Below, piece by piece: positions 5,681 to 31,704 of a stretch of DNA of 31,944 nucleotides; positions within the stretch are counted from its first letter, which is position 1; each line of letters starts with the position of its first letter. Origin of the DNA: a virus; IMG/VR virus record IMGVR_UViG_3300044712_002707, positions 1 through 31,944 of that record. One strand, 5' to 3'. Under the pieces are notes generated by a model. The model did not search any database. It saw only the letters and a list, made by a program, of their open reading frames with translations, and was not told the DNA's origin. The position numbers and the translations under genes were made by a program.

Positions 5681-5814
5681 TCTATTAATTGGTTATTTTT
5701 ATTCTTTAAGCTTTCATTGCATTTAATGAAATCATATACAGGACAAAACTTATAGTCACAATTAAAGTCTTTTACACTTCCATAAAGGCATTCTGCACAT
5801 TTTGTAGTTTTCAT
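5659..5814 (-). CDS. Cys-rich small protein (51 aa), zinc-binding candidate
   Basis: ATG at 5812-5814, stop at 5659-5661. The protein starts MKTTKCAECLYGSVKDFNCD and has Cys at positions 6, 9, 19, 24 and 32, which is a plausible treble-clef or zinc-ribbon spacing, then a basic tail ending KKKKN. It overlaps the downstream gene start by 22 nt in another frame, which is typical of translationally coupled phage genes. The Cys pattern argues that it is real. It could be a nucleic-acid-binding or regulatory peptide. Function unknown. Confidence 0.5.
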   Translation of the reverse strand: MKTTKCAECLYGSVKDFNCDYKFCPVYDFIKCNESLKNKNNQLIEWKKKKN

Positions 5815-5837
5815 ATTACATTTATTTTATTTGATTT

Positions 5838-6041
5838 TCACTTTTTTAAATAAGGTTCAATTTTGTCATAGTTGATAGGTTTACCATTGACTTCAATGAC
5901 ATATGAATTCAATATTCTTGGTGTGATTTCACCTAAATAATTTAATTCTATTGTTTCATTTGTAATTGATATTTCGGCATTTTGTAAATATTCTAAAATA
6001 TCTTCTTCAGATTTAGGCTTTAATATTTCTGCTATTTTCAT
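5838..6041 (-). CDS. Small 'LKPK' leader-motif protein (67 aa)
   Basis: I take the start at ATG 6039-6041 (protein MKIAEILKPKSEEDILEYLQ...), not the more upstream ATG at 6161. The additional 40 residues would be translated out of the interleaved inverted repeats and have no protein-like features. The first 20 residues match the start of the ankyrin-like protein at 2180-2683 in the pattern M-x-I-x-[DE]-[IV]-LKPK-[ST]-x-E-[DE]-I. The remainder (strands such as TIELNYLG and SYVIEVNGKPI) is a small beta-rich domain. It is the first gene of the leftward block, so its leader carries the structured region 6066-6145. Function unknown. Confidence 0.55.
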   Translation of the reverse strand: MKIAEILKPKSEEDILEYLQNAEISITNETIELNYLGEITPRILNSYVIEVNGKPINYDKIEPYLKK

Positions 6042-6065
6042 CTTACAATATATTTTAAATAATAA

Positions 6066-6145
6066 ATGCTCTGAAAGTGGACGACCAATCCTTAAACTTT
6101 CAGAGCATACATACAACCTAATTTCTTTCTTTGGATTGGTCGTCC
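6066..6145. repeat. Two interleaved perfect 13-bp inverted repeats
   Basis: Repeat A: 6066-6078 (ATGCTCTGAAAGT) and its exact complement at 6096-6108. Repeat B: 6079-6091 (GGACGACCAATCC) and its exact complement at 6133-6145. The order is A-B-A'-B', with A abutting B directly. The two hairpins cannot both form fully, because there is no linker between the stem halves. As RNA this is therefore a two-state switch or a partial pseudoknot; as DNA it is a compound operator. It lies 25-104 nt upstream of the leftward start at 6041 and 150 nt upstream of the rightward gene at 6294. Confidence 0.85.
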
Positions 6146-6293
6146 TTTTACTATATATCACTCACACCTACAAAATTTTCTTCCTTTTTTCGCCAAGTGT
6201 TAAAAATGTTAAAACTCTCTGTATCTGTGCTTTAGCTCGCGGATTATGATTATATTAGCCTCATAATCAATCGAATAAATAAAATAAAACGTT

Positions 6294-6698
6294 ATGAAAA
6301 AGCTTATCTTAATCTTTGCACTTCTTTTAGCTGCATTAGTATCTTTTGGCCAAACGATTGAAACGTCCGGCATCTTTGAAACCGGTTACGAGGAAAAAAG
6401 AGCTTTGATTTATATGAATGAAGTGCCTACAGCAGGTGTTAAGATTAAACCCTTCTTTGGTTACTTGTACTTTGATGCTCAATGGAAGAATATAAAAGCA
6501 TATACAAGCAACAAAACATATTTTGATAAGGGAGACAAGATTTACTTTAATCCGTTACAATCTGAATTCAAGATAGGATTGTCTTATGAGTATAAGAAAA
6601 TATTATTAGGAGCAGAACACATGTGTTCTCACAGCATTGATGAATTAATACTAAATGAAGGCTACAATAAGATATTTGTAAGGGTTAAGATGTTTTAG
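6294..6698 (+). CDS. Secreted beta-barrel-like small outer-membrane protein
   Basis: A 134-residue protein with a clear Sec signal peptide (MKKLILIFALLLAALVSFGQ, cleavage expected after about residue 19-20). The mature part alternates short amphipathic strands with aromatic ends (FFGYLYFDAQW, FKIGLSYEYKKILLGAEH, KIFVRVKMF) and ends in Phe, as do outer-membrane barrels. The segment GAEHMCSH, with a His-x-Cys-x-His pattern, recalls small barrel proteins often carried by phages of Bacteroidota. Alone between a divergent control region and a terminator, it looks like a lysogenic-conversion gene, perhaps altering the cell surface or blocking superinfection. That role is inferred only. Confidence 0.65.
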   Translation: MKKLILIFALLLAALVSFGQTIETSGIFETGYEEKRALIYMNEVPTAGVKIKPFFGYLYFDAQWKNIKAYTSNKTYFDKGDKIYFNPLQSEFKIGLSYEYKKILLGAEHMCSHSIDELILNEGYNKIFVRVKMF

Positions 6699-6740
6699 GA
6701 ATAAGCTAATATAGCAGTCGGAAACCTGCTGTCCCTGGGA

Positions 6741-6769
6741 GCCTCCAATTAATTTTGGAGGCTTTTTTT
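6741..6769 (+). terminator. Intrinsic terminator after the 6294 gene
   Basis: GCCTCCAA (6741-6748) pairs with TTGGAGGC (6755-6762), with a 6-nt loop, followed by seven T (6763-6769). Confidence 0.9.
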
Positions 6770-6906
6770 GTCTCTTATATTAAGACAAAAAGTCTGCAAA
6801 GATACAAACAATTATTTACTTGAATCACATAATTACTAACTTGTTACATTTAGCGTCGTAAAACGAAACTTGTTTAAAAAAATGATGTGAGTTATTTTCT
6901 ATTTCG

Positions 6907-6914
6907 TAAATTTG
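6907..6914 (+). promoter_or_regulatory. Predicted -7 box for the structured RNA
   Basis: TAAATTTG is a perfect match to the Bacteroidota -7 consensus TAnnTTTG. It would start transcription around 6920, shortly before the RNA's closing stem at 6936. No good TTTG -33 element was found at the right distance, so this is only half a promoter match. Confidence 0.45.
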
Positions 6915-6919
6915 GGTAT

Positions 6920-7059
6920 GTCCTTTCAGAAAATAAAAAAGATGAACAAAAAGCTATCAAATTGCTTCTGGTGAGTCAAAGCCCCTTCCAAAAGGGCTTT
7001 GAGGGAGCTTTTGATAGTCAGGGTGAGGTCCAATCTCACCCTTTTTTGTTCATCTTTTT
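6920..7059 (+). ncRNA. Highly structured small RNA candidate
   Basis: A 17-bp perfect closing stem (6936-6952 with 7043-7059) encloses a long hairpin and a terminator hairpin. The long hairpin has 8 bp (6954-6961/7010-7017), about 6 bp with wobbles (6964-6969/7003-7008), a bulge GGTGAG (6970-6975) and 9 bp (6976-6984/6994-7002) with a 9-nt loop. The terminator hairpin is GGGTGAG/CTCACCC (7021-7027/7035-7041) followed by T. The bulge is also complementary to 7035-7040, so an alternative pairing can disrupt the terminator. A 10-codon reading frame (6942-6974, MNKKLSNCFW) runs through the 5' strands. It may be a regulatory RNA, an attenuator leader or part of a replication origin. No known RNA family recognised. 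Confidence 0.65.
7021..7047 (+). terminator. Intrinsic terminator of the structured RNA
   Basis: A 7-bp GC-rich stem (7021-7027/7035-7041), 7-nt loop, then six T. Unusually, the T tract also pairs with an upstream A tract as part of the 17-bp closing stem. Confidence 0.8.
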
Positions 7060-7358
7060 CTTATAATGTGAAGTTAAGAATAAATTTTCTAACCCCTATA
7101 CACAATTTTAGGAATTTTCCAAATTTTTATGTGACCTTTTTGGTGGCTCAGGAGGAATGTTTGACAAAAACTTCTTGAAGATCAGTGAATATATAGTAAA
7201 AGATGCGCTTTTGCCGAGCGTTTGAGAACAGCCTAAAGTTCGAAATCGAAAAGACTTTGCTTTAATGATTTAATATTATTTTTTAGGCTAAACCCTCAAG
7301 ACGGCAAATCTTGAGGGTTTTTTAATGTATTTTTAGAAGGTAAAATAAATAATATGAA
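7060..7358 (+). other. Non-coding interval ahead of the polymerase gene; possible second small RNA / origin
   Basis: No reading frame of note on either strand. Contents: an 8-bp hairpin AGCCTAAA/TTTAGGCT (7230-7237/7282-7289) with internal short repeats, followed directly by a strong terminator (7291-7325). A TTTG at 7139 and AATGTTTG at 7156-7163 resemble promoter boxes, but the spacing is short. A small RNA of up to about 160-190 nt ending at 7325 is plausible. Its position directly ahead of the replication-type polymerase gene also makes it a candidate for the origin. Confidence 0.4.
7291..7325 (+). terminator. Intrinsic terminator upstream of the polymerase gene
   Basis: AACCCTCAAGA (7291-7301) pairs perfectly with TCTTGAGGGTT (7309-7319), an 11-bp stem with a 7-nt loop, then a T run. 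It is 34 nt before the next start codon, so it either ends a separate RNA or attenuates the polymerase gene. Confidence 0.9.
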
Positions 7359-8573
7359 ATGAAATCACCATTTCCAGACGTCTTCATCATTGTCATTGAC
7401 ACAATTTTAAGTGATGTTTATAATAAACCTATTCCGAGAAAGGATTATCTATCTTTCTTTGAGATGTTTGAAAAGATTATTTCAAGAAACATCAATGAGG
7501 AATTCACTTCCATGGAAATAAACAACAATGTTGAAAGAATTAAATGGGGCCGTATCAAAGTTAATGGTAAAATGATTTGGAAGCTCGATTTGATGCTCAA
7601 AACACTTAAAGAAAAGAGAATCCTTGAATCAACCGGATATTTAGCCAATATACCTAATTCTAAAGGACATTCAAGACGTTTTTACTTTACTGAATCCTTT
7701 CTTAATGAACTCGATTATTCATCCTTTAGTATTGTTTATGAGGAAATTAACGATAAGATATACCAGACACTCAAAAATCAGAAGTCTTATGATGAATCAG
7801 ATCCACAATATCAGTTATTAAAATCTTCTCGATTTACGATAGATGTTGATAAATGTAATGAATGGCTTATCGAAACATATAAATCAAACCAGATTAGCAA
7901 GGAAAGTTGTTTGCTAAACATAAGGAGAGTTCAAGATATTTTCAATAAGGATATTTATGTTGTCAAGATCAATAATGGTAGGGTTTACAGTTCTTTCAAT
8001 TCTTTGAAAAAAGAGCTACGTCAATTCTGTTATATTGATGGTGAACCTCTTTCAAATTGTGACCTTAAATCTTCACAGCCTTTTTTACTTGCCACCTACC
8101 TAATCAATAAATATCCGAAAAATGGAGATGTTCAGTCATTCTTTGACATTGTGGTTAATAGAGATATTTATACCTGGCTTATGACAAAGAACAATGAGCT
8201 ATTTGAAGAAAAGATTAAGGGTCGGGATGATTGCAAGCCGGAATTTTACAGGTACTTATTCAAGAAAACTAATAAGGGAGTTAATAATATTCAAAGGATT
8301 ATTCAGAGTGTCTTTCCTTCCATGTACAACATAATCAAAAATGAAAAGAATTCATTGGCAGTTGAGGGTAACAATCTTGCCAATTTATTGCAGAGTGTTG
8401 AAGCAAAGTTATTCATTCCGGTTTGTGAGGAGTTTGTAGATCGGGGATGCTTGAGTGTACACGATAGTTTGTATTTCAAATCGGGGATCGAGGATGAGAT
8501 CAGGTCGGGGTTGGAAGGTAAGTTTGGTCAATTTGAAATAATAAAATATAAAATAATTTATAATATACTATAA
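7359..8573 (+). CDS. Divergent family-A polymerase, TV-Pol-like (putative replication polymerase/primase)
   Basis: A 404-residue protein whose C-terminal half keeps the family-A polymerase core. Motif A is CDLKSSQPFLL (D235). The motif B-like helix is KGRDDCKPEFYRYLF (R289, K293). The helix LANLLQSVEAKLF (about 340-352) corresponds to the NxxxQGTAAD helix of Pol I. Motif C is LSVHDSLYF (H368, D369). The order and spacing match a minimal palm/fingers without proofreading or full thumb. This fits the TV-Pol family described from bacterial mobile elements and some DNA viruses, which is proposed to combine primase and polymerase activity. The N-terminal 200 residues look helical, perhaps DNA-binding. 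It is the only replication-type gene seen here. It stands alone between terminators and follows a structured non-coding interval. Confidence 0.7.
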   Translation: MKSPFPDVFIIVIDTILSDVYNKPIPRKDYLSFFEMFEKIISRNINEEFTSMEINNNVERIKWGRIKVNGKMIWKLDLMLKTLKEKRILESTGYLANIPNSKGHSRRFYFTESFLNELDYSSFSIVYEEINDKIYQTLKNQKSYDESDPQYQLLKSSRFTIDVDKCNEWLIETYKSNQISKESCLLNIRRVQDIFNKDIYVVKINNGRVYSSFNSLKKELRQFCYIDGEPLSNCDLKSSQPFLLATYLINKYPKNGDVQSFFDIVVNRDIYTWLMTKNNELFEEKIKGRDDCKPEFYRYLFKKTNKGVNNIQRIIQSVFPSMYNIIKNEKNSLAVEGNNLANLLQSVEAKLFIPVCEEFVDRGCLSVHDSLYFKSGIEDEIRSGLEGKFGQFEIIKYKIIYNIL

Positions 8574-8583
8574 TGTAGTACAC

Positions 8584-8697
8584 CGCCCAGCGGGTCAGCA
8601 GCTTAGAGGGCTTTTCTCAAAGTGTAACTGATTGATAACACTTTTTTCGAAATCAAAAAAGGTCTGATCTTTTATAATCTGAGTTCTCGCTTGGGCG
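8584..8697. repeat. Imperfect long-range inverted repeat in convergent intergenic region
   Basis: CGCCCA-GCG at 8584-8592 pairs with CGC-T-TGGGCG at 8688-8697 (9 bp, one bulge), enclosing the terminator at 8619-8647. A 10-bp direct repeat AGAGGGCTTT occurs at 8605-8614 and 8705-8714, exactly 100 bp apart. The interval 8574-8715 is GC-richer than its surroundings and holds no gene. It could be a folded 3' UTR or small RNA, or the scar of the adjoining cassette insertion. Confidence 0.4.
8619..8647 (+). terminator. Terminator after the polymerase gene
   Basis: AAAGTGT (8619-8625) pairs with ACACTTT (8638-8644), 12-nt loop, and a T run to 8647. Moderate strength. Confidence 0.55.
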
Positions 8698-8715
8698 AAG
8701 GGGCAGAGGGCTTTC

Positions 8716-9126
8716 TTAACAGTCTTTTATTATTGCAATAAAGATTGATAAAGTAGCTAATAATAATGATATAAAAGCTATTATGGTAGCAGTCAAATAT
8801 TTCTTATTCTCACTTCTCAATCCAGCTAAAACAGAAGCCATAAGTGGAAATTGAATACACCTAACATCGTTACCAGCACTTAATGTAAAGAATTTTACCT
8901 TAACACCATCTGATTCAACATAACTATATTTTTCATTTAAATAATAATAAAGTCTGCCAAAAACAATATCACCATCAACACCTAGCTTTTTAGCAATTAA
9001 ATCTGAATCTATCGGAACATAGATTTTTGTTTCCCTTGTTTTATTATTCCTTGAGAAAGAAATGTAAGTTTTATAATAAGTTTTGTAGATCAACTTTAGG
9101 ATTTTAAGGTCTGTTGGGGTTTTCAT
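8716..9126 (-). CDS. Winged-helix-like protein with C-terminal membrane segments
   Basis: A 136-residue protein. Residues 38-80 (DSDLIAKKLGVDGDIVFGRLYYYL, then a beta wing ending VKFF) look like a winged-helix domain. Residues 110-133 (TATIIAFISLLLATLSIFIAIIK) form one long or two short membrane helices at the C-terminus. I do not recognise the family. It is the last gene of the leftward cassette 8716-11177, 43 nt after the PIN gene. A membrane-tethered regulator or a defence component is possible. The leftward orientation between two rightward modules marks it as cargo. Confidence 0.5.
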   Translation of the reverse strand: MKTPTDLKILKLIYKTYYKTYISFSRNNKTRETKIYVPIDSDLIAKKLGVDGDIVFGRLYYYLNEKYSYVESDGVKVKFFTLSAGNDVRCIQFPLMASVLAGLRSENKKYLTATIIAFISLLLATLSIFIAIIKDC

Positions 9127-9169
9127 TTTTATTAAATATAATAGTTATACCTCAGAATATTATATGATA

Positions 9170-10219
9170 TTAAGTATCTAACATATCCCAATCATCACCC
9201 ATAACCCAACGGAGTGCAGATAGTTTTCCATTTAACATACCCCACTCAAAATCATCCCATATAAGATTTTTTTTACCGTATTTTTGTTCAACCCCCTTTG
9301 CAGCTTTTAAAGCTCCTTCCCATATATCTTTCACTATAGTATCTTGCATATTTTTTATATCAAAATCCTTACGATCAATTATTTTCGTTTGACCATTATT
9401 CACATAAAATGCTCTATTCTGATGTCTATTGTACCATATTTTTTCAACTAATTCTGCTTCTACATCCAATATTTCACTAAAACCTCGGGGTTCAAAGTAC
9501 CAATCATTTTCCAACTCATATTCTTCAATAATATTGGGACTTATAGCCTTTAATGCTTCCGGCAGACTTATAAAATATCTGGAATTAGTTTTGTTGAAAA
9601 TATTCTTAAAATCTTCGTGTGGTTCAGATGGATTTGTTTTAAGGCTAAAATCTTCTTTATTATGGGTAACAAATAACATATATAAATTCTTCGATTTAAA
9701 TTTCAATTTATAATCAATATATGACTCAAGGATAATTGCATCAGCAATACTGTTTCTTGATGTATGAAATGGTGCTTCTTTTTTAAGTGATCTGTCAAAA
9801 ACACGAAGCTTAATTTCATCAGTAAGTTCAATTCTTTCGACTTCGGTTATAAACATTGCTTCTATCAAAGTCATTGATTCAGCAATAGTTTCCTTTAGAC
9901 CATACAACTTATGATTTAGATCAGATAGTTGTGGTAATAAATTTCTTTTATCTTCTTCCTTGCCATACTGACTAATAACTTTTTTTACAATGTCAAAATG
10001 TGCAGATAAGCTTTTTCTATGATCATTTATTATTCGATCCTTATTTCTTTGAAATTCAGATATAACAATATCTGGAACAATTACTGAAACTAATTTGCTT
10101 TCAATAAGTTCGAAGAGAATATTTAATAATTTTTCTCCTTTTGTTGTTTTGGCCAATTCTAACCAAACACAAGTATCTAAGAGTAGTTTGAAGTTTTTAG
10201 ACTTCCTTTTTTGTCTCAT
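9170..10219 (-). CDS. PIN-domain (DUF4935-like) nuclease
   Basis: A 349-residue protein whose first 210 residues form a PIN-type ribonuclease domain. LLLDTCVWLEL (D15) carries the first metal-binding Asp, VIVPDIVISEFQRN (E57) the conserved Glu, and SRNSIADAIILESYI with MLFVTHNKEDF the later acidic positions. The insertion between these blocks and the overall length resemble the DUF4935 group rather than VapC toxins, and no antitoxin-like gene is adjacent. The C-terminal 130 residues are an additional domain I do not recognise. Such proteins cleave RNA and several occur in phage-defence or stress contexts. It is flanked by two putative membrane proteins transcribed in the same direction, so an abortive-infection-like module is a reasonable inference. 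Confidence 0.7.
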   Translation of the reverse strand: MRQKRKSKNFKLLLDTCVWLELAKTTKGEKLLNILFELIESKLVSVIVPDIVISEFQRNKDRIINDHRKSLSAHFDIVKKVISQYGKEEDKRNLLPQLSDLNHKLYGLKETIAESMTLIEAMFITEVERIELTDEIKLRVFDRSLKKEAPFHTSRNSIADAIILESYIDYKLKFKSKNLYMLFVTHNKEDFSLKTNPSEPHEDFKNIFNKTNSRYFISLPEALKAISPNIIEEYELENDWYFEPRGFSEILDVEAELVEKIWYNRHQNRAFYVNNGQTKIIDRKDFDIKNMQDTIVKDIWEGALKAAKGVEQKYGKKNLIWDDFEWGMLNGKLSALRWVMGDDWDMLDT

Positions 10220-29885: not shown

Positions 29886-30791
29886 ATGACAAAAGATGAA
29901 TTTTTGGTGGCCCTTCAGAAGGAAGTTGAAGGCTACAATAGAATAATTGCAACTGAAAAAGGCGAATGGATTGTCAAAGGATTTATTGATATTTACAAAC
30001 AGATTTATGCCATAACACTGGATACTAAGGTTATATCCAAAGTTCTTGAATTACTTTTAATACCTGCTTTTCATTCATTTGCTGGAAAGAATAACCTGAC
30101 CCTTGAACTTCCTCCCTATCAAAATTTCTACCCTGATCTTTCTTTTCTGGATAATGAAACAGGAGATAAATTTGCAGTCGATATTAAAAGTACCTATCGA
30201 GATTCTAAAAATGTTATTGGAAGTATGACGCTTGGAGCTTTTACAGGATACTTTAGAAATAGGGAAAGCTGTAAAAATACCCTCTATCCTTATGGCACAT
30301 ACAAGGCACACATTGTACTCGGCGTTATTTATTCACAGATTGAATTAAAGCCAGAAGAAAGGAAAATTTATAAACTTGACGACCTTGATAAGATAGAATC
30401 TGTTATAAGGGACTTTCAATTTTTTGTACAACCTAAATACAAAATTGCTGTTGACAAGCCAGGTAGCGGAAATACTAAAAATATCGGGGCTGTCAACAAT
30501 ATTGAAAAGTTAATTAATGGACAAGGGATTTTTGCCACTCTTGGAGAGGAAGTTTATGATGATTATTGGATGTTTTATTTGACGAGGGATATGGCCAAAG
30601 CCTTGGAAATACCTAGACCCTATACAAATATCAAAAGTTATATGGAGTATAAACGAAAGGGTGTAGGTGTTTTGGAAAAACACAAACAGGAAATAATTAA
30701 ATTTGCAGAAGAAACAGCTCCTACAGAAGAGAATGGGGAAAATGGAGATAATGGAAGTGTTGAAGAGACAAATGGAGAAAACAATGCATAA
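29886..30791 (+). CDS. EcoRV-like type II restriction endonuclease
   Basis: A 301-residue homologue of R.EcoRV (245 residues), which cuts GAT^ATC. All key parts are visible: the helix with the catalytic Glu (DTKVISKVLELL, E55), the Q-loop-like YQNFY, the metal-binding YPDLSF (D84) and the VDIKSTY (D99, K101), NTLYPYGTYKAHIVLG, and the DNA-recognition loop GSGNT (193-197) followed by NIGAV. The conserved recognition loop suggests the same target, GATATC. The last approx. 30 residues are an additional acidic, low-complexity tail. The gene ends overlapping the methylase by 8 nt and stands directly after the holin, away from phage functions, so it is cargo that protects the lysogen or stabilises the prophage. 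Confidence 0.93.
   Translation: MTKDEFLVALQKEVEGYNRIIATEKGEWIVKGFIDIYKQIYAITLDTKVISKVLELLLIPAFHSFAGKNNLTLELPPYQNFYPDLSFLDNETGDKFAVDIKSTYRDSKNVIGSMTLGAFTGYFRNRESCKNTLYPYGTYKAHIVLGVIYSQIELKPEERKIYKLDDLDKIESVIRDFQFFVQPKYKIAVDKPGSGNTKNIGAVNNIEKLINGQGIFATLGEEVYDDYWMFYLTRDMAKALEIPRPYTNIKSYMEYKRKGVGVLEKHKQEIIKFAEETAPTEENGENGDNGSVEETNGENNA
30671..30705 (+). promoter_or_regulatory. Predicted internal promoter for the methylase inside the endonuclease gene
   Basis: TTTG at 30671-30674, 23-nt spacer, TAAATTTG at 30698-30705 (perfect TAnnTTTG). It lies inside the endonuclease's C-terminal part, 79 nt before the methylase start at 30784. Pattern-based only. Confidence 0.4.
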
Positions 30792-31704
30792 GAAAGTATT
30801 TGTACCACCAATAAAGAGTCAAGGAATAAAAACAAAATTAGTCCCTTGGATAAATGAAATCACTCCAAAGACACAAGGTAGGTGGATAGAGCCCTTTTTA
30901 GGTACTGGTGTAGTGGCATTTAATTCCGGGTTTGAAAAAGCAATCCTTAATGATACAAACCCTCATATCATAAATTTTTATAAAGGAATTCAAAATGGTG
31001 ACATTACGGCCCCTTTAATGAAGAAATATCTTGAAAATGAGGGTGCTTTGTTAAGTAAAGGAGGGGATAATGGTTATGACCATTATAGATTGGTAAGAGA
31101 CAGGTTTAATAGTGAATTTTCTCCATATGATTTTATTTTCCTTTCAAGAGCGGGGTTTAATGGTATGATGAGGTTCAGTAGCAAGGGAAAATGGAATATA
31201 CCGTTTTGTAAAAAACCAAACAGATTTGCACAAGCATACATAACAAAGATTACAAACCAAGTATCTTCAATTTCTAAAATCATTAAACCAGAACCTGATT
31301 GGGTATTCTATAATAAGCCTTTCTTTGAAATAATTCCATTAGCTCAAGAAAACGACGTAATTTATTGTGATCCTCCTTATTTTGGAAGGTATGTTGATTA
31401 CTTTAATGGCTGGAAAGAAGAGGATGAGGAGTTATTATTTACTTTGTTAGATAAAACTAGAGCTAAATTCATCTTATCGACTTGGCATCATAATCAATGG
31501 AGAGAAAATGATATGATAAAGAAGTTCTGGAATAAATTTAATATAGTAACTCAAGATCATTTTTATCATTCAGGAGGTAAAATAGATAATAGACAAACGA
31601 TAGTTGAAGCGTTGGTATGTAATTTCAATCTCGATAATTTTAATAAACATAATCATAGTTTAAAGATACCCCAACAACTGCAAACATCATTTCAATTTGT
31701 TTAA
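30784..31704 (+). CDS. EcoRV-type adenine-N6 DNA methyltransferase (D12 class)
   Basis: A protein of about 306 residues. I choose ATG 30784 because the conserved N-terminus (KKVFVPPIKSQGIKTKLV) then begins at residue 3, as in M.EcoRV; ATG 30772 (4 residues more) is the alternative, and the ATG at 30703 would add 27 unconserved residues. D12-class motifs: motif I IEPFLGTGVVAF (AdoMet binding), the block FIFLSRAGFNGMMRF, motif IV VIYCDPPYFG (catalytic DPPY) and the C-terminal FILSTWHHNQWR. It would methylate GATATC and protect host and phage DNA. It overlaps the endonuclease gene by 8 nt, so translation is probably coupled. Confidence 0.93.
   Translation: MHKKVFVPPIKSQGIKTKLVPWINEITPKTQGRWIEPFLGTGVVAFNSGFEKAILNDTNPHIINFYKGIQNGDITAPLMKKYLENEGALLSKGGDNGYDHYRLVRDRFNSEFSPYDFIFLSRAGFNGMMRFSSKGKWNIPFCKKPNRFAQAYITKITNQVSSISKIIKPEPDWVFYNKPFFEIIPLAQENDVIYCDPPYFGRYVDYFNGWKEEDEELLFTLLDKTRAKFILSTWHHNQWRENDMIKKFWNKFNIVTQDHFYHSGGKIDNRQTIVEALVCNFNLDNFNKHNHSLKIPQQLQTSFQFV

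Follow-up and report, generated by a model that had tools for sequence, protein, structure and literature searches.

Intergenic small RNAs of Bacteroidota, such as GibS of B. thetaiotaomicron (PMC7366714) and Rfp of F. psychrophilum (PMC9723704), are strongly folded molecules of 100–200 nt, preceded by a TAnnTTTG box and closed by an intrinsic terminator at the 3′-end. The box occupies positions −12 to −5 in this phylum (PMC9723704), and in B. thetaiotaomicron a start site together with an intrinsic terminator was found for eight of the nine Northern-confirmed intergenic sRNAs (PMC7366714). The element described here, located in the window (the whole 31,944-nt stretch of viral DNA analyzed), is likewise intergenic and strongly folded, with a predicted length in the same range, a candidate TAnnTTTG box and an intrinsic terminator at 7020–7047; unlike those RNAs, it is a prophage-borne, predicted RNA for which no conservation was found, and it has a 17-bp outer stem that includes the T-run and passes it.

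Other systems resemble the element in single aspects. As in bidirectional intrinsic terminators, a G+C hairpin is followed by a T-run with which an upstream A-tract pairs, but here pairing extends for another 12 bp beyond the T-run, and a second hairpin, larger than the first, lies within it. Retron and DRT ncRNAs similarly are complementary-ended RNAs upstream of a polymerase gene; in this case, however, the neighbor is not a reverse transcriptase but a family-A DNA polymerase-like protein, the gene is separated from the RNA by 300 nt and a terminator, and neither a significant enrichment of structure (p = 0.15) nor covariance-model matches were obtained. HK022 putRNA (PMC9378689) is also a structured nascent phage RNA near early/replication genes, but it lets the polymerase pass terminators, whereas this element ends in one; no sequence relation between the two was seen. 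Finally, REP/BIME and MITE repeats are intergenic inverted repeats with internal hairpins, but the element occurs as a single copy in the window and has no target duplication.

One end of this virus contig is host DNA. Positions 1–516 (−) contain the 3′ part of the magnesium-chelatase-like gene comM, and a serine recombinase (573–2177) adjoins it; comM is split by the serine-recombinase prophage (1–572). Homologs from Bacteroidota reach 67% identity, and the host is therefore taken to be a member of this phylum. A different serine-recombinase element, also provided with a family-A polymerase-like gene, sits at the same comM codons (...ASMN/PCPCG...) in a Bacteroidota genome (G470, locus L248, 2011–3888). 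At the right end of the phage, 29886–31704 (+), an EcoRV-type restriction endonuclease (PF09233, E 2e-107) lies beside a D12-class adenine methyltransferase. The features relevant to the element are the following.

6737–6771 (+): intrinsic terminator that ends the gene before the element (ORF 6294–6698)
6907–6914 (+): TAAATTTG, exact TAnnTTTG −7 box of Bacteroidota, 21 nt before the stem; predicted start near 6919
6936–6952 (+): 5′ arm of the closing stem P1 (AAAAAGATGAACAAAAA)
6942–6974 (+): 10-codon frame MNKKLSNCFW with TGA, chance-level, no Shine-Dalgarno
6953–7018 (+): long hairpin of three stacked helices (6953–6961/7010–7018, 6964–6969/7003–7008, 6976–6984/6994–7002), by folding
6970–6975 (+): GGTGAG bulge, unpaired at >99.8% by pair probabilities
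7020–7047 (+): intrinsic terminator AGGGTGAGGT-CCA-ATCTCACCCT with T-run to 7047
7043–7059 (+): 3′ arm of P1 (TTTTTGTTCATCTTTTT), its first five T shared with the terminator T-run
7290–7323 (+): third intrinsic terminator, predicted to close another small unit that precedes the polymerase-like ORF
7359–8573 (+): minimal family-A DNA polymerase-like protein, 404 aa, no Pfam family, identified by motifs, model and one PHROGs match

Architecture of the element and its putative transcription unit

The closing stem is a mismatch-free 17-bp inverted repeat (6936–6952/7043–7059), exactly as the initial annotation had described it, and it encloses the long hairpin and the terminator hairpin. The three-part hairpin and the terminator that the same annotation had placed inside the stem were also recovered: the helices have 9, 6 and 9 bp, and are followed by a terminator hairpin of 10 bp with a 3-nt loop (7020–7042) and by T6 (7042–7047). 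A point overlooked at that stage is that T6 sits within the 3′ arm of P1, so that terminator use and the full 17-bp stem are mutually exclusive in one transcript. Indeed, a folding series revealed that a transcript ending near 7047 can form only about 5 of the 17 P1 pairs, and that all 17 require read-through; a single transcript thus adopts the terminator state and the full-stem state one after the other, never both at once.

The RNA element is the strongest fold of the window (−60.5 kcal/mol, z −6.5), with the lowest fold energy among all 140-nt segments of the 32-kb record. The minimum free energy of 6900–7080 is −64 kcal/mol, compared with −37.4 ± 4.1 in shuffled sequences (z −6.5), none of 200 shuffles being as good. 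Perfect inverted repeats of at least 15 bp with a spacer of 25–150 nt are rare, only six being present in 1.83 Mb of fetched phage and host DNA, and among these the P1 repeat is the most stable (lowest energy per base) of those with AT-rich arms. The folded element is real and strongly non-random.

The −7 box, which had also been pointed out previously, is an exact TAnnTTTG; its position at −12 to −5 implies that transcription would begin near 6919. The box alone, however, appears in 14% of shuffles of 6767–6935, and no −33 TTTG motif was found upstream of it, a motif that was likewise not found genome-wide in Flavobacterium johnsoniae according to work cited in PMC7366714. Between the terminators at 6737–6766 and 7020–7047 there are this box and no ORF of at least 60 aa, and the first of the two terminators sets the RNA unit apart from the gene before it. 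Sequence and folding show the stems, both terminators and the −7 box; transcription, the position of the 3′-end, and a role that combines insulation with that of a small RNA acting as regulator or decoy are inferred.

Beyond the element, a second small unit may occupy 7060–7325 (+), with a 22-codon frame, MFDKNFLKISEYIVKDALLPSV (7157–7225), behind a strong AGGAGG, and with a stem at 7231–7238/7283–7290. A type I antisense relation of the RNA to this neighboring small ORF was considered and discarded, as no exact complementarity of at least 10 nt exists at 7060–7330. Exact pairing of the RNA with other sites in the window never exceeds 12 nt, thus no cis antisense target is evident.

On these grounds, the likeliest, though still tentative, reading of the stretch is a stand-alone small transcription unit of a Bacteroidota prophage, producing a terminated RNA with a lock against read-through; with no credible relatives in the collections searched it is an orphan, and probably an ordinary small RNA/terminator module. 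In the proposed mechanism, the host sigma-A would initiate near 6919, and the transcript would fold co-transcriptionally, the long hairpin (6953–7018) forming first and the terminator hairpin (7020–7042) next. Most polymerases would halt in T6 near 7047, and a stable transcript of about 130 nt would be set free. Upon read-through past T6, the following 12 nt (GUUCAUCUUUUU) would zip onto the 5′ arm and complete the 17-bp stem; P1 may thus represent a second lock behind the terminator, protecting both the RNA and the replication gene that follows against read-through. The initial proposal of a stable regulatory RNA of the phage, matching no known family, agrees with this picture, in view of the strong fold, the −7 box, the RNA's own terminator and the lack of an Rfam match. 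The strongest fold of the window, both terminators, the box, the make-up common to eight of nine sRNAs and the plus-strand wobbles detailed below were counted in favor; the lack of relatives, a box devoid of the −33 motif and frequent in shuffles, and the strong fold of the minus strand were counted against, together with the location of part of P1 beyond the T-run, a feature superfluous in a simple terminated sRNA.

Another explanation is that the element is only a nested (double) terminator or insulator before the replication gene and that the short RNA is itself functionless. The outer stem includes the T-run of P4 in its 3′ arm, the outer arm starts with A5 and ends with T5, and three terminators stand in a row ahead of the polymerase-like gene; moreover, a similar terminator within a longer stem follows a gene at another locus (L202, 1340–1413). 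Transcription of the preceding gene, however, is already ended by a terminator of its own 250 nt upstream, and termination does not need the 66-nt branched hairpin inserted between stem and terminator; this explanation is considered rather unlikely.

Relatives, repeats and folding of the two strands

Searches for relatives of the RNA covered 637 genomes of the host phylum, about 100 relative loci and 50,697 phage records. The earlier statement that the element belongs to no known RNA family holds, since no Rfam match was obtained at gathering or relaxed thresholds, the relaxed matches being at chance level. The covariance model search that the initial annotation had named as a check was performed with a single-sequence model (R1) on 400 + 237 Bacteroidota genomes, giving best E values of 0.19 and 0.51 and nothing credible; in the approximately 100 loci, too, no credible match was found. 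Blastn of the RNA against phages gave short AT-rich matches only, and that of 5800–9200 against plasmids gave none. In an exact-arm scan of IMG/VR, the stretches checked lacked the second arm and, among the matches listed, the only one was the copy in the window itself (L001); exact matches to 16-mers of the core, also in IMG/VR, were discarded, as the covariance model and inspection indicated unrelated places.

As no credible relatives turned up in the collections searched, the refuting condition named in the initial annotation, a lack of conservation or covariation in relatives, has no cases to apply to, and covariation speaks neither for nor against the fold. A covariance model built from a single sequence is not powerful, and a terminase comparison revealed no close relatives of the prophage (about 29% identity to Gram-positive phages); hence the missing relatives say little about function.

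A look-alike match came from a Bacteroidota genome (G708; L252, ATGAACAAAAAG...), but it was rejected: the match belongs to a local repeat family whose shared part varies among copies, and the best similarity in G708 is at chance level (blastn E 0.016 against only about 33 kb). The repeat in question (L252, 1455–1567) is a BIME-like intergenic sequence with paired GCCCCTAAATCCCC hairpins and 36 matches in its genome, several of them arranged as head-to-head pairs 80–110 nt apart.

The presence of such paired intergenic hairpin repeats in Bacteroidota, together with perfect inverted repeats flanking the inner hairpins of the element, is compatible with a non-autonomous mobile or repeated element, MITE- or REP/BIME-like, in which the 17-bp repeat would be the terminal inverted repeat. 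This origin seems improbable, however: the element is present in a single copy in 32 kb, no target-site duplication of 2–14 nt abuts it, and the chance-level similarity just described is the best that G708 offers.

A further explanation concerns the DNA itself, the element being a replication origin, a cruciform or a protein-binding palindrome for the adjacent polymerase, a family-A protein carried by phages and integrative elements. The single-stranded DNA of the element folds strongly (z −8.8), and the reverse complement is nearly as strong as the plus strand (−57.6, z −7.2); strong folding of the minus strand and of single-stranded DNA follows from the fact that an inverted repeat must fold on either strand. 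The helices contain four non-Watson-Crick pairs, G6953-U7018, U6967-G7005, U6969-G7003 and one G-U in P4, which are G-U wobbles in the plus-strand RNA and A-C mismatches on the opposite strand, thus providing modest evidence in favor of a plus-strand RNA. As the four wobbles pair only in this RNA, as an iteron array sought around the element was not found, and as the gaps upstream of the relatives of the polymerase are not significantly more structured than others (p = 0.15), a DNA-level function is distinctly improbable.

The mini-ORF and the family-A polymerase-like gene

The initial annotation also likened the element to a transcription attenuator that senses translation of the leader peptide MNKKLSNCFW. 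The frame is present (6942–6971), with its TGA (6972–6974) inside the bulge, but its length is uninformative (p ~0.56): in random sequence of the same composition, 56% of ATGs run for at least nine further sense codons. Likewise, the bulge is complementary over 6 nt to the 3′ arm of the terminator (GGTGAG/CTCACC), as had been noticed, but a six-base copy of the terminator arm occurs in about 7% of shuffles and, at every transcript length, forcing this pairing costs 12.4–16.2 kcal/mol. Because the stop codon is inside the bulge, a ribosome located there would cover GGTGAG itself, and when the ribosome-covered stretch was masked in folding, the terminator hairpin still formed. No regulated gene lies directly downstream of the element, as the next ORF starts at 7359, after the terminator at 7290–7320. 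With an unfavorable alternative pairing, a chance-level frame and a further terminator before the next gene, attenuation was abandoned as very improbable.

The conserved residues of the product of the gene at 7359–8573 include D235/S239/Q240, K293 and H368/D369, and it has the motifs DxxSSQ and HDS (DLKSSQPFLLA, VHDSL). When its AlphaFold2 model (pLDDT 79) was compared with the PDB, the top 48 matches were family-A DNA polymerases, with a best E of 1.4e-3, and one of its relatives matches a DNA polymerase I family in PHROGs. Relatives are found in huge phages (600 kb) and, within Bacteroidota, in small integrative elements; in the latter, the gene is usually preceded by a non-coding gap of 300–1000 nt. 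The upstream gaps in the huge phages are mostly short or absent. Several other sequences were noted around the gene: a 349-aa PIN_12-domain protein beside it (9170–10219, −); a near-identical 14-nt motif, TTCGAAATC(G/A)AAAA, flanking it at 7239–7252 and 8646–8659; AGAGGGCTTT at 8605 and 8705; and, inside the ORF, a perfect sigma-70 consensus, TTGACA-17-TATAAT (7396–7424, +), probably a coincidence in a Bacteroidota host.

An association of structured RNAs with this gene was screened in 87 + 12 relatives. It looked promising at three loci (L186, L199, L202) and was dropped after comparison with control gaps of the same loci: several of the 15 gaps upstream of polymerase genes carry strong folds, but fold strength is not significantly enriched with respect to 34 other gaps (one-sided p = 0.15). 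Three-way junctions with a closing stem of at least 12 bp were present in 2 of the 15 polymerase gaps (the window and L199) and in none of 100 control gaps, with 0 expected in shuffles, by a descriptor chosen after seeing these two very cases; close relatives of L199 were sought as a test of the descriptor, and none was found. The L199 element (2271–2342) lies some 20 nt ahead of the polymerase-like gene and is closed by a perfect stem of 12 bp; its loop, CAGTTG, is the complement of a CAACTG that immediately precedes the start codon. It differs from that of the window in sequence and position, and has no T-run. In L186, a 20-bp hairpin with a terminator (1886–1995, z ~−10) lies between divergent genes, 480 nt upstream of the polymerase-like gene, and is likely a separate small RNA gene.

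That the RNA might be a template, primer, cofactor or partner of the polymerase-like protein, in a two-component system of ncRNA and polymerase that would follow retron- or DRT-like logic with no reverse transcriptase, L199 being a second, diverged example, is possible but very improbable: the RNA lies on the same strand 300 nt upstream of the gene, its closing stem and inner hairpins resemble the retron layout, and L199 has its junction before the polymerase gene, both loci contributing to the 2/15 against 0/100 count, but that descriptor is post hoc and the general test gave p = 0.15, a terminator separates RNA and gene, the huge-phage relatives mostly have short upstream gaps or none, and the L199 structure is unlike in sequence and position.

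Implications

Were the RNA bound by the neighboring family-A polymerase, for which the evidence is weak, this would extend RNA-guided DNA synthesis to a class of polymerases that is not known to perform it. As a stand-alone terminated RNA, and provided that it is transcribed, the element would enlarge the repertoire of small RNAs in Bacteroidota phages, which has received little study, by one structured orphan; its outer stem, extending past the T-run, would represent a clean model for testing fail-safe (double-lock) termination.
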